This document shows, piece by piece, positions 859 to 47,154 of a stretch of DNA of 47,154 nucleotides. The notes beneath the pieces were generated by a model, which was not told where the DNA came from, did no database searches, and saw only the letters and a list, made by a program, of their open reading frames with translations. The translations under genes and the position numbers were made by a program. The stretch comes from a virus. The stretch's first letter is position 1, and every line of letters begins with the position of its first letter. The stretch is taken from positions 1 through 47,154 of IMG/VR virus record IMGVR_UViG_3300005618_000027. One strand, 5' to 3'.

Positions 859-989
859 TCGTGCACGTCGAGGACATCGCAGACATCGTTGCCACGTGGC
901 AAACGTGGGAGCGTGTCGACAGCATGGGCGGCTGGTGGGTAACCACGCACAGCACAGGTAGCAAGCAGTTCGTTCAAGACGACGACTGA
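855..989 (+). CDS. Small hypothetical protein, 44 aa
   Basis: The start overlaps the previous stop as ATGA, and the stop TGA forms the first bases of the first copy of the two-hairpin leader. The product is short, with an acidic end (QDDD) and a WWVTT core. No family is recognised. Coupling to the upstream gene is the main support for it being real. Confidence 0.55.
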   Translation: MIVHVEDIADIVATWQTWERVDSMGGWWVTTHSTGSKQFVQDDD

Positions 990-1079
990 CATGCTTACAG
1001 CGCACGAACGATGGAGGTCGTGCGTTGTGATGCGTGCCAATCACGGTACGTGCAATGCAACAGGAAAGGCAGCACACAC
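987..1079 (+). promoter_or_regulatory. Two-hairpin leader element, copy 1
   Basis: Begins with TGACATGC (including the stop of the gene before). Stem 1 pairs CGCACGA (1001-1007) with TCGTGCG (1018-1024). Then comes the conserved GATGCGTGCCA, in which CGTGCC (1033-1038) pairs with GGTACG (1045-1050), then a Shine-Dalgarno and a CA-rich spacer before the start at 1080. Stem 1 differs from the other copies but keeps its pairing. Confidence 0.6.
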
Positions 1080-1316
1080 ATGCTGTTCACACACATGCTC
1101 ATCGAGCAGGGACCAGTCGTCCCGACCGCCAGGCCCGCACAAGTCATCTTTGTGGGCGAGGATTACAACACACGGTTCAACGCTGTGCATGGCGACACGA
1201 TCATCGTCGTCATGAAGCCAGCGGGCGATGTCGTCGCACGCTGCAACGACATGGGCGGCGAGCCCGTGTACAACCCGTTCACGCTGATCAACACTTGCGA
1301 AGGTGTCGACTTCTGA
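1080..1316 (+). CDS. Hypothetical protein, 78 aa
   Basis: Preceded by the first copy of the two-hairpin leader and an AGGAAAGG ribosome site with a CACACA spacer, which sets the start at 1080. The same frame is open upstream through the leader and would encode a CxxC-containing stretch (RCDACQ), so a longer zinc-ribbon form is an alternative. The core contains a hydrophobic strand (DTIIVVMKP). No family is recognised. The stop overlaps the next start as TGATG. Confidence 0.6.
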   Translation: MLFTHMLIEQGPVVPTARPAQVIFVGEDYNTRFNAVHGDTIIVVMKPAGDVVARCNDMGGEPVYNPFTLINTCEGVDF

Positions 1317-1450
1317 TGAGCGCAACGCAGTACACACGGCCAGACGGCAGCACGTACATCGTGGCCCGCACGACGGCCGGCACGTATGTCGTCATCGGCG
1401 TGCCAGGTTCGTACCGCTTGAAGCGTGACGCGGTGGCTGCTGGCAAGTAG
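1316..1450 (+). CDS. Small hypothetical protein, 44 aa
   Basis: Starts inside the stop of the preceding gene (TGATG), so it is probably translated by re-initiation. The sequence has alternating short strands (STYIVART, TYVVIGV) and a basic end. No family is recognised. It ends just before a strong terminator, closing the first early operon. Confidence 0.55.
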   Translation: MSATQYTRPDGSTYIVARTTAGTYVVIGVPGSYRLKRDAVAAGK

Positions 1451-1476
1451 CATCGAGGCACGGCTAGTCGCACAAA

Positions 1477-1509
1477 GGCGCACAGATCATTTCGATCTGT
1501 GCGCCTTTT
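1477..1509 (+). terminator. Rho-independent terminator (GGCGCAC family)
   Basis: A perfect 12-bp stem, GGCGCACAGATC (1477-1488) with GATCTGTGCGCC (1494-1505), has a 5-nt loop and is followed by TTTTG. The outer half of the stem is shared with terminators at 3753, 5902 and 47083. Confidence 0.85.
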
Positions 1510-1532
1510 GCGCGTCTACCGTGACGTTGGGC

Positions 1533-1589
1533 GTTGGCGACACGCGTGCTGGGCTTGAGTCACGTCGTGCAGGTCAGCGTGTCACCAAC
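1533..1589 (+). promoter_or_regulatory. Long hairpin upstream of the clamp gene
   Basis: GTTGGCGACACGC (1533-1545) pairs with GCGTGTCACCAAC (1577-1589) at 12 of 13 positions around a 31-nt loop. There is no T-run, so it is not a terminator. It lies 120 bp before the sliding clamp start and may be a leader structure or a protein-binding site. Confidence 0.45.
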
Positions 1590-1709
1590 ACACGCACAGT
1601 AGCACACGCACACATGCAACACAATGGCGAACAGATACTTGACAGTCATGAGACAGTCTGCTCAGCAAGGCAACGACTCCCGTTGCACCAATGGAAGGAC
1701 ACACACGCA

Positions 1710-2465
1710 ATGGAACTGTTCAACACACGTGAGATCGAGGGCGCAACACTTGCCGTCGATCCGAGAATGTTGCAAGGTGCGGCACTGTTCGCATCGAGCG
1801 AAACGGCAGCGAGGCCGATACTCGCAAGCGTTGCAGTCTGCTTCAACAAGGCAGACGTTGCCAGCGGCACCATCGTGCCGTTCGCATACGTAGCAACCGA
1901 CAGCTACCGGCTCGCAGTCGTCGGTGGTGTTGCCAAGCACAGCCCGATGGAGCTGCGCAACGCAGTGTGCATCGATGCCGACGTGCAGTACGTGCTGCTC
2001 AGCGTGGCAGACATCGCCAAGCTGAAAGTGACTCGCACGACACAGTTCGCCACGGTGGCGATCCAGGGCGGCGCAACGTACAGCAACGTCACGACAACGA
2101 CGTTCAAAGGCTGGACTGGTGGCGCAAGCGGGCTCGCAGAGATGACCCCGGCAAGCCGTCGCTCGTACACAGACCAGACCAGCATCGGCACGCTGGTCGA
2201 CGGCGAGTATCCGCAGTTGCGCAGCATCCTGCCCGAGCAGGAGCCGAACCTGTACGGGGTGCCGCACTTGTGCTTCAATCCGAAGTACATGGCGACGTAC
2301 CATGCGTTCAGCAAGCTGTTCAACAAAGACGGCGACACGCCACTGGTGTTGCGTGGTGCTGGCAGCGAGCTGAAGCCCGCAATCTGGACGATCCGCGAAG
2401 GCGACGACGCACAGTTGTTGTCGCTGCTGATGCCAGTGCGCAAGACCGAAATCGGGGAGTGGTGA
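1710..2465 (+). CDS. DnaN-like DNA polymerase sliding clamp, 251 aa
   Basis: Resembles the bacterial beta clamp, a ring that tethers the replicative polymerase to DNA. Visible support: ATDSYRLAVV (about residues 68-77), like the family's ATDGHRLA motif, and a C-terminal LLMPVRK, like the beta clamp's closing MPxR motif. At 251 aa it is shorter than the usual ~370 aa, as phage clamps often are. The start at 1710 is set by GGAAGG and a CA-rich spacer; the longer frame upstream runs through a hairpin and a terminator. It is followed by a coupled gene (TGATG). No phage DNA polymerase was recognised in the window, so it probably works with host Pol III; it could also act as a decoy. Family call fairly confident, partner inferred. 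Confidence 0.75.
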   Translation: MELFNTREIEGATLAVDPRMLQGAALFASSETAARPILASVAVCFNKADVASGTIVPFAYVATDSYRLAVVGGVAKHSPMELRNAVCIDADVQYVLLSVADIAKLKVTRTTQFATVAIQGGATYSNVTTTTFKGWTGGASGLAEMTPASRRSYTDQTSIGTLVDGEYPQLRSILPEQEPNLYGVPHLCFNPKYMATYHAFSKLFNKDGDTPLVLRGAGSELKPAIWTIREGDDAQLLSLLMPVRKTEIGEW

Positions 2466-2878
2466 TGAACGATCACATTCTGGCGAGATACGCAAAGTGG
2501 GAGCGTCGGCGTGGTGCGATCAGCCGACTCGAAGGGTTCCGACCGGGCAGCATCGCACCGCGGCACTGGGAACAGAGCGACGACAACGCCGTGGACCTGA
2601 TGCACGAGGCGATGAACGTCATCGCTGAAGTGCAGCAGTGCTTCACCCGCTACAACGAGCACATGAGCGGCATGGCACCGGCCGTGTCGTGCAGCGAGGC
2701 CGAGGCCATGTACGAGGCGATGCAGCTCGTCGGTGCCGATGACGTTGCCGAGTCGTTCATGCTCGACCACGCCATGAGCGATGACGACGAGGGCGACCAG
2801 CACGAGGTTGTGTACTCGTCATACGGCACGCAGCGGCCAGTTGGCTGGAAGCAGCGCGTCGTCGGCACGCTGGAATGA
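2465..2878 (+). CDS. Hypothetical protein, 137 aa
   Basis: Coupled to the clamp gene by a TGATG overlap. The product is acidic in its C-terminal half (MSDDDEGDQHE) and mainly helical, with no membrane segment. No family is recognised. Its place right behind the clamp suggests a replication-linked role, but that is context only. Its stop is the first codon of the second two-hairpin leader. Confidence 0.65.
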   Translation: MNDHILARYAKWERRRGAISRLEGFRPGSIAPRHWEQSDDNAVDLMHEAMNVIAEVQQCFTRYNEHMSGMAPAVSCSEAEAMYEAMQLVGADDVAESFMLDHAMSDDDEGDQHEVVYSSYGTQRPVGWKQRVVGTLE

Positions 2879-2962
2879 CATGCCCGCAGCACACAAGCAC
2901 GCAGCTTGTGTGTTGCGATGCGTGCCAATTCGGGTACGTACAAGCAGGGAGATACACACACA
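2876..2962 (+). promoter_or_regulatory. Two-hairpin leader element, copy 2
   Basis: Begins TGACATGCCCGCAGC. Stem 1 is a perfect 9-bp helix, CACACAAGC (2890-2898) with GCTTGTGTG (2904-2912), closed by a 5-nt loop. The conserved GATGCGTGCCA follows, with CGTGCC (2921-2926) pairing GGTACG (2933-2938). A CAGGGAG ribosome site and CA-rich spacer lead to the start at 2963. Confidence 0.65.
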
Positions 2963-3169
2963 ATGAGCGCAGCAATCGAGGTACTACAGGATGCGGTTGG
3001 CGAGACCAACGAGCGCATCGAGGACATCAAGCGCACCATCGCCGGCCACGAGGCGACGTTGCTGGCAACGCACGAGGCGATCGAGGCACAGCGTGCCGAC
3101 ATGGCCGATCTGCAAGAGCAGCACAAAGAGCTGGTCGTGGCAATCATCAAGCTGGGCGTCGCATCATGA
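2963..3169 (+). CDS. Small coiled-coil protein, 68 aa
   Basis: Almost the whole product is a predicted coiled coil rich in E, A, L and I (for example NERIEDIK, RADMADLQEQHKEL). The start follows GGGAG and a CA-rich spacer at the end of the second two-hairpin leader. No family is recognised. Overlaps the next gene as ATGA. Could oligomerise or bind a partner protein. Confidence 0.7.
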   Translation: MSAAIEVLQDAVGETNERIEDIKRTIAGHEATLLATHEAIEAQRADMADLQEQHKELVVAIIKLGVAS

Positions 3170-3360
3170 CGGAGCGACTTGCATCGTTTCTCAAGGTGCA
3201 CGACGTGATCGAGCGTGACGGCATCGACGTAAGAATCGAAACGCTGCGCTACACGGCATCGGGCGTGGTTGTCATCGAAGTTCAGTCGAACAACCCCGCA
3301 GGCCCGACCGGACGGTGGGAGTACATGCTGCCGCCCGACGAGCTGGTGGTGATCAAGTGA
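3166..3360 (+). CDS. Small hypothetical protein, 64 aa
   Basis: Coupled to its neighbours by ATGA and GTGA overlaps in a run of four tiny genes. The pattern of short strands (VDVRIETL, GVVVIEVQS, WEYML) suggests a compact beta fold. No family is recognised. Confidence 0.6.
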   Translation: MTERLASFLKVHDVIERDGIDVRIETLRYTASGVVVIEVQSNNPAGPTGRWEYMLPPDELVVIK

Positions 3361-3536
3361 CGCAGTGGTTGCTGGAAGGCAGCTACGGCACGTTTGAAAT
3401 CAAGCGTGTCGTGGAGGCTGACACCAGGCAACAGGCATACGAGCAGACCGGCATCAAGACCACGCTTGAGGATGCCGGCTGGACCGTGAGCGACATCGAC
3501 GGCGAAGATTGGTCGATCACGAAGGTGCGATCATGA
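3357..3536 (+). CDS. Small hypothetical protein, 59 aa
   Basis: GTG start overlapping the previous stop (GTGA), chosen over an upstream ATG that would overlap more. The product is acidic, with FEIKRVVEAD and DGEDWSITKV segments. The pattern of a strand, a helix with an AYEQTG turn and a final strand is common in small phage proteins of unknown function. Confidence 0.55.
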   Translation: MTQWLLEGSYGTFEIKRVVEADTRQQAYEQTGIKTTLEDAGWTVSDIDGEDWSITKVRS

Positions 3537-3736
3537 CACGCATCACATTCCACGTGTCGATGGACACTGACGGCGATGCCGACGAGCTGGCACGCAGCTT
3601 CGAGCAGTACATCTCGACACCAGGCCCGCAAGACCTTGGGTTCCTCAGCGACTACGCACGTGACGGTGTGTACTCAATCGCATCGGGCTACGAGGGGCCG
3701 TTTGTCGAGAGCATCGGTGTCGTTCGCACGAGCTAA
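3533..3736 (+). CDS. Small hypothetical protein, 67 aa
   Basis: Starts within the preceding stop (ATGA) and ends 16 bp before a strong terminator, so it closes the second early operon. Acidic product with an aromatic C-terminal half (DYARDGVYSIASGYEGPF). No family is recognised. Confidence 0.6.
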   Translation: MTRITFHVSMDTDGDADELARSFEQYISTPGPQDLGFLSDYARDGVYSIASGYEGPFVESIGVVRTS

Positions 3737-3752
3737 CAGCAAGCAAGCAAAA

Positions 3753-3786
3753 GGCGCACATGGACTCCCTTCCATGTGCGCCTTTT
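3753..3786. terminator. Terminator between convergent genes (GGCGCAC family)
   Basis: A perfect 12-bp stem, GGCGCACATGGA (3753-3764) with TCCATGTGCGCC (3771-3782), is followed by TTTT; on the other strand AAAA precedes the stem, so it can work both ways. It separates the rightward gene ending at 3736 from the leftward gene ending at 3810. Confidence 0.85.
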
Positions 3787-3809
3787 GCGCGTCTACAGGC
3801 GTGTTATGG

Positions 3810-4148
3810 CTAACTGCGCGTCGGGGATGATTGCGACGCAAATGCCTGCTTGACGATCGGCGCGATCAGATGCGGGTTTGCTTGCAAGTGGCCGATGACC
3901 TGTTGCGTGGTTTGGGCAACGATCTGGCGTTGCATGCTTGCGAACAGTTGCATCTCGGTGACTTCACGTGCGGTCTGCAACGTGGCCTGGGCGAGATTCC
4001 AGTACGCACGTGCGTACTCCTTGCCGGACGTGTCGATGCCGGGAAGCATCTGCTCACTGAACAGCGAGTCGAACGTCACCTGAGGGCGCGTGTCTGACTG
4101 CGCGTACTGAACCTGCTTCTCATCTTGCGCTGTTTGCGTATCGGGCAT
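3810..4148 (-). CDS. Lone leftward early gene, 112 aa, unknown
   Basis: The only leftward gene inside the 16-kb rightward early region. The start at 4148 is set by a strong AAGGAG eight bases upstream; the longer frame lacks one. The product is Gln- and Ala-rich and mostly helical (ATLQTAREVTEMQLFASMQ, QTTQQVIGHLQAN), with no membrane segment. Upstream there is a possible -10 (TACTGT at 4198-4193) but no clear -35, and a small hairpin (GCAGAC/GTCTGC) at 4169-4188. It ends at a bidirectional terminator. A leftward gene in an early region can be an immunity or lysogeny gene, but no DNA-binding motif is evident. Confidence 0.65.
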   Translation of the reverse strand: MPDTQTAQDEKQVQYAQSDTRPQVTFDSLFSEQMLPGIDTSGKEYARAYWNLAQATLQTAREVTEMQLFASMQRQIVAQTTQQVIGHLQANPHLIAPIVKQAFASQSSPTRS

Positions 4149-4285
4149 GGGCGACTCCTTCGTGTAAGGCAGACAGGTTGTTGTCTGCGTGAACAGTATG
4201 CGCACAGATGCGCGACACACGCAAGAGCGTACACGCATGCCTACACGCACAGGGGATTACGTGTGCCGCACAGATACATCACAAA

Positions 4286-4298
4286 GACTTGACAAGTC
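4286..4298. promoter_or_regulatory. Perfect 13-bp palindrome, candidate operator
   Basis: GACTTG-A-CAAGTC contains a TTGACA box and lies 62 bp upstream of the DUF932 gene, in the divergent intergenic region. It matches the palindrome at 10291-10303 in its inner 11 bases. The -10 box for a TTGACA promoter here is poor. Confidence 0.45.
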
Positions 4299-4360
4299 AA
4301 TTAGAGTTATGGCTGTTAGTCGGCAACAACGCCGCAACAAACAGGAAGCAGTACACACAC

Positions 4361-5434
4361 ATGAGTATCTACCAACAGATCGAGCTGAACGACGGCGTAG
4401 TCACCGGGTTCCTCGATGAGAAGATCAAGGCGTGGCACCAGGGCGGCATCGACAGTGCCGAGCTGGTTCGGCTAGGGCGTGCGTTCAACGGCCCGGTCCC
4501 CGCAGACGTGGCGGCTCGCCTCGTGGCATGGGAACCGATCATCGTTGAGCTGCCCGGTATCACGGACATCAACGGCGAGTTCTACACGCTGCCCAACAGG
4601 TTGTCGCAGTTCGTCGCCAACCCGAACAGCATGGAAATCGTCAACGTTGCCGGCAGTGGCTACGACGCACGGTTGCACATCACGTTCCAAGAGCTGATCC
4701 AAGCGGTTCTCGACAACAACGGGCTGATCGCATCGGCCGGTTGCCTCGGTGACGGGGCGCACATGTTCGTGTCGTTCCGAGCTGGCGATGGGCAGACCAT
4801 CGGCGGCGAGTGGGGCGGGGCAGTGCCGCTGGTCAACCTCACGGCGAGCTTGACTGGTGCGCTCAAGAACACGCTGCACACCAGCAGCACCCTGATCGTC
4901 TGCGACAACACAGCGAACCATTCGGTGCGCACCGCGACGAACAGCATCGGCGTCAAGCGCACCAAGAACGCAGCGTCGAAGCTGAACGTCACCAGCATTC
5001 GTGAAGCACTCGACGTGGCATTCGCTGACACGTTGGAGCTGGTTGCCGAGTTCGAGCGCATGGCCAACATGCCAGCGGACGAGGGCATGCTCAGCATCGT
5101 GCTGAACATGTGGAAGCCGATTCCCAACGACAAGGGCCGTGCGCAGACAATCGCCAAGAATCAGCACGCTGACTTCATGCGGTTGTTCAACACGGACCCC
5201 CGCAACGTGTTCGGCAAGTCGGTTGCTGGTCTGCTGCAAACCCACAACACGTGGGCTCACTGGGAGCAGGGCATGCGAGGCTTCGCTGATGTCAAGGGCA
5301 TCGTGCCCGTCACGGCGAGGCTTGACCGCATGGCAATGCGCACAGGTGCCGGCGACGTGGAGAGGGAAGATGCCAAGTTCATGCAGATCATCGCCAGCGA
5401 GTACCCCGAGCTGGCACTGGTCGTAGCGAGCTGA
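4361..5434 (+). CDS. DUF932 phage/plasmid-like protein, 357 aa
   Basis: Resembles the DUF932 (phage/plasmid-like, TIGR03299) family, common in actinobacterial and other phages and plasmids, with no established function. Supporting features are length, the NRLSQFVANP region, the central SFRAGDG..WGGAVPLVNLTASLTGALKNTLHTSSTLIVCDNT core and the helical second half with VKRTKNAASKLNVTSIREAL (family-like pattern, by eye). The start at 4361 is set by CAGGAAG and a CACACAC spacer. Upstream lies a TTGACAA palindrome. The gene ends at the third two-hairpin leader. Members are often highly expressed early; a role in replication or recombination is only suggested by context. Confidence 0.65.
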   Translation: MSIYQQIELNDGVVTGFLDEKIKAWHQGGIDSAELVRLGRAFNGPVPADVAARLVAWEPIIVELPGITDINGEFYTLPNRLSQFVANPNSMEIVNVAGSGYDARLHITFQELIQAVLDNNGLIASAGCLGDGAHMFVSFRAGDGQTIGGEWGGAVPLVNLTASLTGALKNTLHTSSTLIVCDNTANHSVRTATNSIGVKRTKNAASKLNVTSIREALDVAFADTLELVAEFERMANMPADEGMLSIVLNMWKPIPNDKGRAQTIAKNQHADFMRLFNTDPRNVFGKSVAGLLQTHNTWAHWEQGMRGFADVKGIVPVTARLDRMAMRTGAGDVEREDAKFMQIIASEYPELALVVAS

Positions 5435-5545
5435 CATGCCCGCAGCGCACAACGGCGTTCTAACCCTGCGCTTACCTAGGCAGGTCTACCGTTGTGCGTT
5501 GCGATGCGTGCCATCCGGCATTAGCTGAAGCAGGGAGATACACAC
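5432..5545 (+). promoter_or_regulatory. Two-hairpin leader element, copy 3
   Basis: Begins TGACATGCCCGCAGC like copy 2. Stem 1 is 10 bp, CGCACAACGG (5446-5455) with CCGTTGTGCG (5489-5498). Its larger loop can hold an inner stem (CCTGC/GCAGG). GATGCGTGCCA follows, with a shorter second stem TGCC (5509-5512)/GGCA (5517-5520), then CAGGGAG and a CA spacer to the start at 5546. Confidence 0.6.
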
Positions 5546-5896
5546 ATGGCACACGAATACGCCACGGACCATCGCTGGTCCCCAACCGCGTCGGGTGCAA
5601 CCCCGCCCGACGACGCACCTGCCGTGTACACGGCACGGTGGATCGACTACGGCACACATGCCGACGTGGTGCACGACCGCGGCGGCTTCGCCTTTGACGA
5701 GCAGTCCGCAGTCGACCGGCTCATTGACGAGCTGAACGAGGTTCGTGCGCACCACGACATCGCAGACATGCCGCGTGACGTGACGCACCAGCTCATCCAG
5801 TCCGACACGTTGGTGATGTTTGGCCGGCGTGCGGGCGGGTACGTATACGTTTGCGCCTGGCAGCCGGCTGGGACGCAACCGAGCGCAACCGAATGA
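5546..5896 (+). CDS. Hypothetical protein, 116 aa
   Basis: Preceded by the third two-hairpin leader; the ribosome site is CAGGGAG with a CA-rich spacer. The product has an acidic helical middle (DRLIDELNEVRAHHDIADM) and a C-terminal beta-like stretch (GGYVYVCAWQ). No family is recognised. Ends just before a terminator, so it is probably expressed with the DUF932 gene or alone. Confidence 0.65.
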   Translation: MAHEYATDHRWSPTASGATPPDDAPAVYTARWIDYGTHADVVHDRGGFAFDEQSAVDRLIDELNEVRAHHDIADMPRDVTHQLIQSDTLVMFGRRAGGYVYVCAWQPAGTQPSATE

Positions 5897-5901
5897 ACAC
5901 T

Positions 5902-5937
5902 CAGTGCGCACAGACCATCAATCTGTGCGCACTGTTT
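5902..5937 (+). terminator. Terminator-like hairpin
   Basis: A perfect 13-bp stem, CAGTGCGCACAGA (5902-5914) with TCTGTGCGCACTG (5922-5934), is followed by TTTGTGT, a weaker T-run than the other terminators. The GTGCGCAC core relates it to the GGCGCAC family. Confidence 0.65.
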
Positions 5938-5949
5938 GTGTAATAGACA

Positions 5950-5989
5950 TTGACTATCCCCATACGTTACACGTACAGTATGTAACGTA
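5950..5989 (+). promoter_or_regulatory. Promoter with overlapping palindromic operator
   Basis: TTGACT (5950-5955), 18 bp, TACAGT (5974-5979). A perfect inverted repeat, TACGTTAC (5963-5970) and GTAACGTA (5982-5989), straddles the -10 box. It lies directly upstream of a winged-helix gene, so autoregulation is likely. The sequence TTACACGTnnAGTATG within it recurs at 19171 before the tail-fibre operon. Confidence 0.6.
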
Positions 5990-6031
5990 GACCAAGACCC
6001 CGTTTACAACAACCAAAGGACAAACCCCAGC

Positions 6032-6394
6032 ATGAAGGAATCACAGTACGGCCCACAGTTCGAGCAGATTGTTCGAGATGCAGGCGAGGAAGGCATCTCA
6101 GCGGGCGACATTCACGAACAGGTGCAGTCGTCCCGCCAAGCGGTCTACGGATGGATTCGCAAGAACCAAGCGCACCTGCGCAAGGTTGGCGAGTCGACCC
6201 GTGGCGGCGTCATGTACCGATGGGTCGACCAGTCCATCGCTACCGTCAAGCGCAACGGCAAGGCCAAGCCCGCTGCGAGTGAAGGCGTCGAGGTTGGCAC
6301 CGTGTTCACCGTGACACGGTTGCGGTTCGTCAACGGTCACATGTGGGCGACGCTCACCAGTGACCACGCTGAAGTCGAAGCCGAGTTGTCGTGA
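6032..6394 (+). CDS. Winged-helix DNA-binding protein, candidate regulator, 120 aa
   Basis: The N-terminal ~60 residues read as a winged helix-turn-helix: EQIVRDAGEEGISAGDIHEQV, then SSRQAVYGWIRKN as likely recognition helix, then a wing ending in GGVMYRWV. The C-terminal half (VFTVTRLRFVNGHMWATL) looks like a small beta domain. The start follows AAAGGA. The promoter just upstream carries a perfect inverted repeat over the -10 box, so the protein probably represses its own operon and may act as a phage repressor or Cro-like switch; this is inference. Coupled by GTGA to two small genes. Other roles, such as an anti-host factor, cannot be excluded. Confidence 0.65.
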   Translation: MKESQYGPQFEQIVRDAGEEGISAGDIHEQVQSSRQAVYGWIRKNQAHLRKVGESTRGGVMYRWVDQSIATVKRNGKAKPAASEGVEVGTVFTVTRLRFVNGHMWATLTSDHAEVEAELS

Positions 6395-7140: not shown

Positions 7141-7689
7141 ATGACTGCGAGTGGTCAACCTATCGACCCCGATGATCCTTGGACGATGGCCACAACCACC
7201 GGCTACGACATCGATGAGTTCTACACGCGGGCATCGGATGGCAAGGGACACAGCGCCAACAGACAGGTCACCGTGTCGACTGCGCTCGCCGGCATGATCG
7301 ATCGACTCGTGCAGAGCAAGGCAATCCCGTCGCTCGCATCGTTCCAAGATGTTGCACGTGACGCGCTGATCCATCGCATGCGCTACGTCGACCGGGAGCT
7401 GTTGAAAGGCAACGACTTCGGGTTCGCCAAGGTGCTCGCAGCAGAGGCACAGATGTCACGCATCAAAGCACTGCACGATCACCGACGCCAGGCGCACGAG
7501 CTGATCGAGCAAGTGGGCATCGAGATAACAGTGCAAGTCAAAGCCAACCAGCGCGACGCAGCGTGGAATGAGATTGAGCAGTTCGAGGAAACGTGCGTGC
7601 TGTGGGCAGACGATCCGGTCTACGTGGAGATGCAAGAGGCGGCGGCGCAGTGGAAGCTGATGCTGCAACGACTATGGCTTGTTAAGTAG
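7141..7689 (+). CDS. Hypothetical protein with possible ribbon-helix-helix, 182 aa
   Basis: First gene after a consensus promoter and directly upstream of the helicase (stop and start adjacent). Near residues 40-80 the pattern RQVTVSTALAGMID followed by a helix with VARDALIHRM resembles a ribbon-helix-helix DNA-binding fold; the rest is helical and Gln-rich. The start follows AAGGA with a spacer containing ACACGCG. No family is firmly recognised. A role as regulator or accessory factor for the replication genes is inferred from position. Confidence 0.6.
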   Translation: MTASGQPIDPDDPWTMATTTGYDIDEFYTRASDGKGHSANRQVTVSTALAGMIDRLVQSKAIPSLASFQDVARDALIHRMRYVDRELLKGNDFGFAKVLAAEAQMSRIKALHDHRRQAHELIEQVGIEITVQVKANQRDAAWNEIEQFEETCVLWADDPVYVEMQEAAAQWKLMLQRLWLVK

Positions 7690-9342: not shown

Positions 9343-10038
9343 ATGACAGACGTACAAGACAAATGGGGGCTCACCAGTGGGCTACCGCTAGCCGATGCCG
9401 ACGTGGAGATAACCACGTTCGAGTTTGGTTTCAACGCCAACATCGGTGCCGGCCTGGTGTGCGCCAACATCGGGTTCACCATCACCGACAACGACGAGCT
9501 GGTTGACCAGTCGTTCACCGTTGGTGACGGGTGGGAGATTGGTGGCAAGGGCGCATCGATCAGCGGCAAGAAGAAGATCAACAACCAGACCAACTGGGGC
9601 CGGCTCGTGCAGTCGATGATCAGCGCGTGCGGTGGGCCAGAGGGCATTCAGAGCACGTTGCCCGACGCCGACTACCGTGAGGCAGCAGGTTGGATCGGTA
9701 CTCGTTGGCATCTCGACACCGTGGACGTAGAGGTCTACAACCCGAGCAACAAGACGACCAAGACGGCCAGCAAGATCATCGCCACGTCGTTCATCGGCAA
9801 GGGTGATGCGAGCACCAACGGTGCGACCAAGCCTGCCGCCAAGAAGTCTGGCAAGCCGGCGCTGATCGACACCGACCCGGCGCTGTTCGCTGAGCTGTTG
9901 GCTATCGCTGAGACACACGCAGACCATGAGGATTTCGTCGGTGCTGTGCTCGAACGTGCCGACGTGGAGAGCAACCCCGTCGCAGTCGGTGCGGTGATGA
10001 GCACCAAGGCCGGCAGCGTGTGGGCAGCAAAGGCATGA
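9343..10038 (+). CDS. Hypothetical protein, possible ssDNA-binding protein, 231 aa
   Basis: The start follows AAGGAG with a short CA-containing spacer. The N-terminal ~150 residues look rich in beta strands with Trp and Gly (KWGLTSGLPLADADVEITT, DGWEIGGKGASISGKKKIN, NWGRLVQSMI); the C-terminal part is a helical tail after a linker (KPAAKKSGKPALID). Position between a helicase and recombination genes, and a beta-rich fold with a flexible end, suggest a single-stranded DNA-binding protein, but no family motif is certain. Coupled by ATGA to the next gene. Confidence 0.55.
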   Translation: MTDVQDKWGLTSGLPLADADVEITTFEFGFNANIGAGLVCANIGFTITDNDELVDQSFTVGDGWEIGGKGASISGKKKINNQTNWGRLVQSMISACGGPEGIQSTLPDADYREAAGWIGTRWHLDTVDVEVYNPSNKTTKTASKIIATSFIGKGDASTNGATKPAAKKSGKPALIDTDPALFAELLAIAETHADHEDFVGAVLERADVESNPVAVGAVMSTKAGSVWAAKA

Positions 10039-10802: not shown

Positions 10803-10883
10803 AGATCACCAACGGTATTCCTGCTACCAGCAGTGATCTAGCTGAGGGCACACGAGTCGCCAGTGGAAACGGATTCGTGTGCC
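10803..10883 (+). promoter_or_regulatory. Two hairpins upstream of gene at 10919
   Basis: AGATCAC (10803-10809) pairs with GTGATCT (10833-10839); GGCACACGA (10847-10855) pairs perfectly with TCGTGTGCC (10875-10883). No T-run follows. They fill the gap between two genes and precede GGAAGG with a CA spacer. The arrangement recalls the three-copy leader, but without its GATGCGTGCC segment. Confidence 0.45.
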
Positions 10884-10918
10884 TGACTGCAAGATCAACC
10901 AGGGAAGGACACAACACA

Positions 10919-11293
10919 ATGGACATCAACAGCGAGGGTTTGGTGGTGCCACGTGCACTGCCGCCGAGCCAATGGCAAGCCAGCGTCGACGCATCAGAGT
11001 TGATGGCGGAAGCAATCACATGGGAGTACGGCACGGCGTTCGCTCTCAACTACATGAACGACACGGGTGCGGGCAGTCACGTCGCGCTCGTGTTCAGCCT
11101 GCCGATCGATGACACCGACGCCAAGGTGCTCGTCATACCGATCGACATGGATCAGGTGCAACAGATTGCGATGTCGATGATCCGTGCGCTCGCCGGCATC
11201 TACGGCAAGACGCTCGATGAAGTGATCGAGGCCGCAGTGTGGGATATCAAGCATGGCTACGAGGGTGGAGACGAGGCAGACGACGTGACGTGA
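10919..11293 (+). CDS. Hypothetical protein, 124 aa
   Basis: The start at 10919 is set by GGGAAGGA with a CA-rich spacer after two hairpins. The product has N-terminal LPPSQWQASVDASELM, a hydrophobic strand (HVALVFSLPIDD), helices with QIAMSMIRALAGIY, and an acidic end. No family is recognised. Overlaps the nuclease gene as GTGA, so the two are probably co-translated. Confidence 0.6.
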   Translation: MDINSEGLVVPRALPPSQWQASVDASELMAEAITWEYGTAFALNYMNDTGAGSHVALVFSLPIDDTDAKVLVIPIDMDQVQQIAMSMIRALAGIYGKTLDEVIEAAVWDIKHGYEGGDEADDVT

Positions 11294-13097: not shown

Positions 13098-14284
13098 GTC
13101 GCGCACCCTGGTTGGAAGCACACGACGAGTTCGAGGGCGTCGGTGCGCATGAACTGAATCCGCGCTACGACCCGGTTGACGAGAAGGCACGCAGCGGCAC
13201 CGAGCTGTTCTATCTGCCGGCGTACTCACGGGCACGCAGCTTCATGCTGGCCACGTTCGAGGCACCACGTCTCGATGGCATCGATGGGTCGCATCACAAC
13301 TACGACGCCGGCCCGGTGGATTTCAACGCGCTCTCGGCATCAACATGGTGGTGGGCGTGGAAGGCAACGCAGTCGACTGGCTATGTCGACCCGACGTTCG
13401 CTGCGATGCGTGCGCTCGCCGGCCGGCTGTTCACACACCGGCTGTTCTACCACTGGTTGTCGTCCACCACTGATGTCGTCAAGCAAGCAGAGAACTATCT
13501 GCGCACGGTTGGTGTGTTGCACGAGGGCGACGGCGTGATGATCGACGCCGAGGAAGCAGGCGTGACTGTCGACAAGTGCTTGCTGTTCGCACGTGCTGTT
13601 GAGTCGGTGACCCATCGGCCATGCGCGATCTACACGGGTGCGTATGTCGCGGGCGGCACCATCTGGCAGTCAACTGCGCTGCGACACAGCGACTACGGCA
13701 TGCGTCCGATGCACCTTGCCGCGTACACCACGGAGGCACGTGCACGCTCACTGCCCGGTGTGGCGGCGTACCCGTGGGACGCATGGCAGTTCAGCAGCAA
13801 CGGCCCGGTGCGTGGCATCACAGGACGCTGCGACATGAATCGGGTGGACAACATCTCGGTCTATAACTCGGCATGCAGGGTGACGGTGCTGCCCCCACGA
13901 ACACAGGAGCCAGACATGGCGCACATCATCACTCATTCGGAACCTCGTGACTTCGAGGGCAACGTCTACAGCAACAGTCAGATCAAATGGATCGTCATGC
14001 CTGATGGCACCAAGCGTCATCTCGGTGGGCCTGAGTTCCGGTTGTACGACGACGGCACAGGCGGCGTTGCATACGACAACATCGATCTGGACAACTGGCC
14101 AGACTACGTAGCACCGAACACGGTGACCCCGACCAACACGCCGGGGCCAGCGGGTGCAGCGGGTGCGGTCGGTGCAGCCGGCGCAGCGGGCGCAGCAGGT
14201 GCGGCCGGTGCCGTGGGGCCAGCAGGTTCGGACGCAGCAGCACAGGACATCACAGGCACCTTCACCGGCACGACAAGTGGTTGA
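13094..14284 (+). CDS. GH25 lysozyme-like endolysin with collagen-like tail, 396 aa
   Basis: A glycoside hydrolase 25 muramidase that would cut peptidoglycan at lysis. The N-terminal catalytic domain has GIDGSHHN (D64), VMIDAEE (D151, E153 acid pair), IYTGAYVA and PWDAWQFSS, matching GH25. A second region follows (DGTKRHLGGPEFRLY) that may bind the wall, and the C-terminus is collagen-like (GAAGA/GPAG repeats, about 353-384). It overlaps the ATPase gene (ATGA) and the next gene by 8 bp. Endolysins usually sit by the holin, which here is 5 kb away and leftward. A cell-wall hydrolase with another role, for example release or superinfection exclusion, is possible. Confidence 0.75.
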   Translation: MSRAPWLEAHDEFEGVGAHELNPRYDPVDEKARSGTELFYLPAYSRARSFMLATFEAPRLDGIDGSHHNYDAGPVDFNALSASTWWWAWKATQSTGYVDPTFAAMRALAGRLFTHRLFYHWLSSTTDVVKQAENYLRTVGVLHEGDGVMIDAEEAGVTVDKCLLFARAVESVTHRPCAIYTGAYVAGGTIWQSTALRHSDYGMRPMHLAAYTTEARARSLPGVAAYPWDAWQFSSNGPVRGITGRCDMNRVDNISVYNSACRVTVLPPRTQEPDMAHIITHSEPRDFEGNVYSNSQIKWIVMPDGTKRHLGGPEFRLYDDGTGGVAYDNIDLDNWPDYVAPNTVTPTNTPGPAGAAGAVGAAGAAGAAGAAGAVGPAGSDAAAQDITGTFTGTTSG

Positions 14285-33030: not shown

Positions 33031-33665
33031 GAACCCTTGATCGTTGTACCTTGGTCGGCGCGCTTGGCGGTGGTACGTGGCGCGTCGGCGGATGGCTTCG
33101 ACTCATCGTGCTTGGGCTTGGGTAGCTCGTGCGATTCGACGGGAGCCTTCGACTTCTTGGCGTCGTCGGGCAGTACACCAGGATTCTCAGCAACCTCACG
33201 GTCACTGATCAGCTTGGTGAGCTGATCGATCTGTGCCTGCTGCGCGGCGAGCGCACGTTGCAGGACCGCGGTTTCAGCGGTGATCGGCGGCAGGTCGGTG
33301 TCGTCGGAACCGGGGAGCGGTTCCAAACCTGCCGGGTCATCGAGCACCATCGGCAGCCATTCGTCTTTGAGCGTGGTCACACGGAACGGTGGTGTCTGTT
33401 CCTCCCACAGCTCAGCAGCGTCGGGTTGGCCGAGCTGATAGCCCCACTGGAAACGGACCTGCTGGTACGTGTCTGAGCGGGCGCGATCGCGTGCGGTGTC
33501 ACGTGCCTTGGGGTGACCAAAGAACGCCGCTGCGACCTCGATGGGCACGATCACTTCGCCACCAGGTTCGATCGTGTATTTCTGGCCCTGATACACGAGG
33601 GTCAAATCGCGATAGTTCGCATCACCCTTCTTGGAAGGGTTGAGAATCTTGACAAGTTCGTTCAT
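33027..33665 (-). CDS. Hypothetical structural protein, 212 aa
   Basis: N-terminal part with a basic patch and beta segments (LTLVYQGQKYTIEPGGEVIVPI), later an acidic, Pro/Lys-rich disordered C-terminus. The first half resembles small capsid-completion proteins found after major capsid genes, but no family is certain. Coupled by ATGA to the coiled-coil gene. Confidence 0.5.
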   Translation of the reverse strand: MNELVKILNPSKKGDANYRDLTLVYQGQKYTIEPGGEVIVPIEVAAAFFGHPKARDTARDRARSDTYQQVRFQWGYQLGQPDAAELWEEQTPPFRVTTLKDEWLPMVLDDPAGLEPLPGSDDTDLPPITAETAVLQRALAAQQAQIDQLTKLISDREVAENPGVLPDDAKKSKAPVESHELPKPKHDESKPSADAPRTTAKRADQGTTIKGS

Positions 33666-33735
33666 GCTCGTCTTTCATGTGTACAGATGTCGACACGGCG
33701 CGTGCTGCCTCGCCGTGTCGACATTCAGGCGGGGG

Positions 33736-47115: not shown

Positions 47116-47154
47116 GCGTTTTCCGACCAGGCACCAGGCACCAGGCACCAGCGG
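47116..47154. repeat. ACCAG repeats at the right end
   Basis: Four tandem GGCACCAG/GACCAG units at the end. The last 12 bases, AGGCACCAGCGG, equal bases 1-12 of the window. This could be a cohesive or redundant end, or an assembly overlap. Confidence 0.6.

Follow-up and report, generated by a model that had tools for sequence, protein, structure and literature searches.

The genome of a virus from IMG/VR (record IMGVR_UViG_3300005618_000027), analyzed here over its whole stretch of 47,154 bases (the window), carries the same leader-like sequence before three genes. This raises the question of whether the repeated sequence acts as an RNA structure and what such a structure might do between the genes that it separates.

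Three copies of a hairpin element at gene junctions

The three copies are located on the plus strand at positions 987-1079 (c1), 2876-2962 (c2), and 5432-5545 (c3), and thus the leader originally proposed for the genes at 1080, 2963, and 5546 is real. When a covariance model built from c1 to c3 was run against the whole window, only these copies were found at 91 to 105 bits, the next non-overlapping match reaching 19.5 bits. In agreement with the original prediction, the upstream stop codon is part of each copy: the first letters of all three are the TGA of the upstream open reading frame (987-989 in c1), which in c3 is the DUF932 gene. Each copy ends at its 3′ side with a Shine-Dalgarno (SD) sequence (CAGGAAAGG in c1 and CAGGGAGA in c2 and c3), a spacer, and the ATG of the next gene at 1080, 2963, or 5546. 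In between lie hairpin 1, composed of a lower and an upper stem, and a second hairpin overlapping its 3′ end. The lower and upper stems span 990-994/1032-1036 and 995-1007/1018-1030 in c1, where hairpin 2 extends from 1034 on, 2879-2883/2920-2924 and 2885-2898/2904-2917 in c2, and 5435-5439/5506-5510 and 5441-5455/5489-5503 in c3.

Each copy stands inside one of three gene runs on the plus strand and never at the end of a run. The first run (466-1450) holds c1, the second (1710-3736) holds c2, and the third (4361-5896) consists of the DUF932 gene, c3, and a gene for a 116-amino-acid protein. The ends of the runs are marked by terminator-like hairpins at 1474-1508, 3747-3788, and 5902-5934, respectively. 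This layout suggests that the genes of each run are carried on one shared transcript.

Compensatory base changes in hairpin 1

Hairpin 1 proved to be larger than predicted. The claimed arms are real, and to them are added an invariant lower stem, CATGC/GCGTG, and a small internal loop below an upper stem of 11 to 16 bp, giving a helix of about 16 to 20 bp in two parts. As hairpin 1 runs on through the lower stem, the conserved flanks of the element are themselves pairing strands. The segments TGACATGC and GATGCGTGCCA are invariant, next to an upper stem that is free in sequence and nevertheless paired. The loops are 10, 5, and 33 nt long in c1, c2, and c3, confirming that they differ in length, and the 33-nt loop of c3 is structured by an extra internal hairpin.

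In the three-copy alignment of 19 pairs, standard pairs occupy 98.2% of the 57 cells, with a single cell unpaired. Thirteen pairs are invariant, five are changed on both sides, and one is changed from C-G to U-G with the wobble kept, so that five of the six variable pairs are doubly changed and the claim of differing arms that pair in all three copies holds. Of 500 column shuffles, 2 reached the covariation score, and pairing fell to 12 to 53% when the partner strand was displaced by one to three columns. The three double changes in the gap-free part of the stem are all G-C to A-U transitions, for which a G-U intermediate is possible; when the same number of right-arm transitions was placed at random, the probability that all cells still pair was about 0.005. 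The leaders, folded from stop to start, gave z-scores of −3.2, −3.8, and −3.1 (1,000 dinucleotide shuffles each). Because there are only three copies, all in one genome and with no homologue found, this covariation is paralogous and small. Together with the kept wobbles and the variable but paired upper stems of other phages described below, the compensatory changes support the proposed selection on RNA pairing, and we consider it very probable that the hairpins exist as structures at the RNA level.

Hairpin 2 and the ribosome-binding site

The second hairpin, GTGCC/GGTAC or GTGCC/GGCAT, is present in each copy as predicted, with 5 bp in all three and, as judged by eye, 7 to 8 bp in c1 and c2. 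It is weak: each copy taken singly is near chance, at 5 to 7% by random occurrence. Since its strand GCGTG also belongs to the lower stem of hairpin 1, the full forms of the two hairpins cannot coexist and exclude each other in part. The shared strand, GATGCGTGCCA, is the longest invariant stretch of the element. The two conformers, with lower stem or with hairpin 2, are 1.3, 4.3, and 2.8 kcal/mol apart, and the preferred one varies among the copies, c3 favoring the lower stem.

The downstream ribosome-binding site follows just 3′ of the hairpin in mostly open A/C-rich sequence. In the predicted ensemble the SD region is mostly unpaired (0.52 to 0.88), and the hairpin therefore does not simply hide it. 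The SD sequence and CA spacer, counted as part of the leader in the original prediction, are present in the copies but not specific to the element, as an SD with an ACACACA spacer is also found at hairpin-less genes of this phage (466, 1710, 4361, and, on the minus strand, 17787).

Analogous elements in the same and other phages

Searches with patterns, BLAST, and the covariance model detected no homologous copies among IMG/VR sequences, phage records, and GTDB genomes. Pattern scans of IMG/VR and the GTDB genomes returned only chance matches, as judged by folding and the covariance model, and blastn of c2 against phage records gave no match. Protein searches with the DUF932 protein, the helicase, and the protein encoded at 1710-2465 revealed no near relatives in IMG/VR, nor did a DUF932 search of genomes; a terminase search retrieved one 8-kb contig with an identical terminase, on which the element does not occur. 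Distant DUF932 relatives (23 to 27% identity in the alignment) provided loci for comparison. The proposed covariance search for relatives was run on 36 DUF932 neighborhoods, and the model gave no match at E values up to 1. The likeness of the elements of other phages described below is therefore one of architecture and not of sequence, and we regard them as analogues of c1 to c3.

Within the window, a hairpin at 10833-10898 on the plus strand shows the same architecture as c1 to c3 with an otherwise unlike sequence. Its lower stem is formed by the strands TGATCT/AGATCA and its upper stem, 13 bp long, by GGGCACACGAGTC/GATTCGTGTGCCT; an SD and an ATG at 10919 follow. Its fold z-score is −3.67, and the covariance model matched weakly over 10845-10921 (E value of 0.009). 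No long upstream open reading frame was found to stop at its foot. Possibly it is a further occurrence of the same architecture.

Gordonia phage Orchid contains four copies, three of the form TGAATC-AACC-[paired, variable]-CGATG-GATTCA and one whose foot is changed. AACC-CGATG forms the internal loop between the lower-stem strands TGAATC/GATTCA, and for two of the four copies the foot TGA could be shown to be the stop codon of the upstream gene. The left arms of the upper stems share as few as 4 of 12 positions between copies, and three of the four upper stems are fully paired, the remaining one (o115) having a bulge. By eye, there is no clear hairpin 2. Such hairpins, unannotated so far, were found here in the Orchidvirus phages Orchid, RobinSparkles, and Gibbles. 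Like c1 to c3 they consist of a conserved lower stem with TGA at its foot, an internal loop, and a variable paired upper stem followed by SD and ATG, and they stand in an operon with a DUF932 gene; their conserved sequence, however, is a different one. Upstream of the DUF932 gene, the upper stems found at the orthologous position in Orchid and Gibbles differ from each other, and both are paired. When IMG/VR was scanned for the Orchid foot, the inside was unpaired in 20 of 21 contigs, with 0 to 3 outer pairs, the Orchid record being the sole one with 5 to 16. The GATG motif shared with Orchid in the internal loop did not prove to be general. Apart from these hairpins, positions 9561-9634 of the Orchid stretch, beyond its last annotated gene, match the Rfam Pistol self-cleaving ribozyme at 36.9 bits (cutoff, 34.5).

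In the phage record IMGVR_UViG_3300036795_000143, intercistronic hairpins of the form GCGTTTCC...GGGATGCCCGCTAGG occur at 7174, 7895, 9059, 10767, and 12567 of the locus compared and at record position 53802. Five copies were folded, and in four of them the TAG stop codon of the upstream gene lies inside the lower stem. The family has an alternative hairpin, GCCCGCTAGGGC, and the record contains a sixth match to the conserved 3′ strand. Covariation in this family taken alone was not significant and did not exceed that of shuffles.

Minihelices resembling the acceptor and T arms of tRNA are among the known substrates of RNase P or RNase Z. In Mycobacterium phage Fowlmouth (MH834613) and the IMG/VR locus L144, the same junctions hold repeated minihelices of this type, mostly in gaps between genes and with stems that vary and remain paired. 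They consist of a T-loop TTCGATT (at 1637, 2321, 2847, 3712, 3989, 4756, 7312, 7809, and 8432 in the Fowlmouth locus and at 2348, 2734, 3170, and 6531 in L144), a variable 6-bp T-stem, and a contiguous acceptor-like stem of 5 to 6 bp. In most of them a stretch of 10 to 18 nt replaces the D and anticodon arms, and a further hairpin and the SD GGATGGAA follow. ARAGORN called none of them as a tRNA gene; possibly they are RNase P or RNase Z processing signals. L144 also carries, on the same phage contig as these minihelices, a GOLLD RNA match at 13805-14265 (180 bits).

Alternative explanations

Several readings that place the function in the DNA, in a protein product, or in transcription can be weighed against the properties of hairpin 1. 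The original prediction named a CDAC-containing reading frame as a competing conserved object, and the element might accordingly be the remnant of a small coding sequence with a CxxC motif. CDAC codons do occur in all three copies, and in c1 the frame runs into the downstream gene (MEVVRCDACQSRYVQ...). It is joined to that gene only in c1, however, and is broken by a stop codon in c3; the distances from CAGC to GTTG (22, 21, and 51 nt) and from CCA to ATG (40, 35, and 32 nt) do not keep a spacing in multiples of three, and the c1 extension matched neither a protein family nor any sequence by tblastn. The frame is thus not the conserved object, and we consider a coding remnant extremely improbable. 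The suggested attenuation leader is not supported either: neither hairpin is followed by a U-tract, the copies are absent from the terminator scan, and the terminator-like hairpins stand elsewhere, so that an intrinsic terminator or attenuator was rejected or ranked low. A sigma-70 promoter was likewise rejected or ranked low, as no −10 box at the right distance could be recognized by eye. By position, the nearest described feature is the ESAS of cluster K mycobacteriophages, an inverted repeat with a variable spacer located, with the SAS, just upstream of the SD and start codon of a subset of nonstructural genes (PMC3203893). The three copies are likewise imperfect inverted repeats upstream of the starts of a subset of early, nonstructural genes, and the left arm of c1, CTGACATGCTTACAG, resembles the K1 half-site TTGACATGCATACAG. 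A protein-bound DNA repeat of this kind, or a promoter or operator, nevertheless appears quite improbable. With a matrix of Anaya sites (17-bp half-sites) the c1 left arm ranked third in the window with a score of 10.4 bits, which is close to background, whereas most real Anaya sites score 20 to 30; the arms of c2 and c3 were not among the top window matches listed, and the 13-bp SAS GGGATAGGAGCCC was not seen next to the start codon in the leaders of the copies. On this evidence c1 to c3 were not assigned to the ESAS. According to the authors who described the ESAS (PMC3203893), moreover, deviations within the conserved half-sites of these elements do not, in general, maintain RNA pairing, whereas the arm changes of c1 to c3 are matched from left to right. 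Self-correction of palindromes by template switching, without any selection on RNA, would also change the two arms in step and vary the loops. This process should remove mismatches, but some persist in all copies (G-U 20/74, U-G 12/83, and A-C at the foot); the matched changes inside the stem are transitions that G-U intermediates could have bridged, and the fixed position between stop codon and SD would be left unexplained. We judge it very improbable.

Two further readings accept an RNA structure and assign it another role. In a translational switch, GCGTG would pair either with CATGC next to the stop codon or with the downstream GGTAC/GGCAT, and the terminating ribosome would choose between the two states and thereby set initiation at the next gene. 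The invariance of the shared strand, the energy differences given above, and the occurrence in all three copies of both a hairpin 2 and a stop codon at the lower-stem foot speak for such a switch. It is unlikely, though, given that hairpin 2 is short and near chance, that the preferred state differs between the copies, that neither state clearly hides the SD, and that the Orchid-type elements have no clear hairpin 2. Alternatively, a phage RNA-binding protein could recognize the invariant lower stem and internal loop as an RNA operator and co-regulate the three downstream genes. The invariant segments beside a sequence-free upper stem and the presence of one copy in each of the three runs would fit this model, but the invariance may reflect common descent of three recent copies, and we regard an operator as distinctly unlikely.

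A putative mRNA processing or insulation signal

The reading that we favor, with a probability of roughly 40%, is that the hairpin serves as an mRNA processing and insulation signal separating cistrons, probably by RNase III-type cleavage. It is favored because the element stands between stop codon and SD, the SD is mostly unpaired, there is no U-tract, and other phages carry tRNA-like minihelices at such junctions. Changed letters with kept pairing, together with differently spelled hairpins elsewhere, probably mark a signal that cuts or insulates a shared message. Each copy would thus form an RNA hairpin where two cistrons of a single early mRNA meet, an RNase III-type double-strand endonuclease would cut the helix made up of lower stem, internal loop, and upper stem, and the cistrons of each of the three runs would be expressed as separate units. 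Instead of being cut, the helix might block decay from one side. When a ribosome terminates at this TGA, its footprint must include the 5′ strand of the lower stem; from geometry alone, some coupling of upstream translation to the state of the hairpin is therefore likely. Intercistronic helices of about 11 to 22 bp, with or without an internal loop, are typical of RNase III-type sites, a range into which hairpin 1 falls, and this enzyme would be the simplest candidate for a hairpin of this form; RNase III of Streptomyces (AbsB) cleaves mRNA (PMC2936110). Cleavage itself is proposed tentatively; in length, the helix is close to the lower limit for the enzyme. Against the reading as a whole, there are only three copies in one genome, and the covariation in IMGVR_UViG_3300036795_000143 does not exceed shuffles.

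In T7-type phages, polycistronic mRNA is processed at RNase III hairpins between genes. Like c1 to c3, these are intercistronic, have two helical parts and an internal loop, occur several times per genome, and lie between a stop codon and the next SD. The present elements differ in having the stop codon in a conserved hairpin foot and a sequence-free upper stem, and in their cleavage being inferred. Mycobacterial interspersed repetitive units are repeats between genes with stop and start overlaps; compared by description only, c1 to c3 differ from them in forming a strong hairpin and in lacking a small open reading frame conserved across the three copies. Intercistronic hairpins of phage mRNA are thus known as a kind, and the novelty suggested for the element as a class is unproven. 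What stands of that suggestion concerns the stop-overlapping form: Rfam gave no matches over the window, only chance miRNA and sRNA matches elsewhere appeared in 900-5700 at E values up to 1, and no description of such hairpins in these phages was found in the open PMC literature.

A wider, somewhat unlikely generalization is that these hairpins represent a widespread and undescribed phage element in which a stop codon in a hairpin base conserved within each lineage, below an upper stem free in sequence but paired, couples termination to separation of the next cistron, with lineage-specific spelling and tRNA-like minihelices in some phages. If the processing reading is right, dedicated RNA elements split the early mRNAs of some actinophages and likely actinophages at the borders between genes; annotation would have missed these elements, given their location in short gaps and the absence of any sequence shared from one phage to another. 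Searches could then look for a foot containing a stop codon, an upper stem that varies yet pairs, and an SD downstream, and the connection of translation termination with mRNA processing could be tested directly.

Other features of the window

Dense CACCAGGCA/CAGCGGCA repeats occupy both ends of the record (1-360 and 47120-47154); perhaps they represent the ends of a circular map, an origin, or an attachment region. On the minus strand, a perfect 14-bp hairpin without a U-tract lies at 33686-33725 in the gap between two genes of that strand and shortly before the gene whose start is at 33665. At 5940-6010, upstream of a gene at 6032 with a weak helix-turn-helix match, the inverted repeat CGTTAC..GTAACG is overlapped by a promoter-like TTGACT-18-TACAGT.
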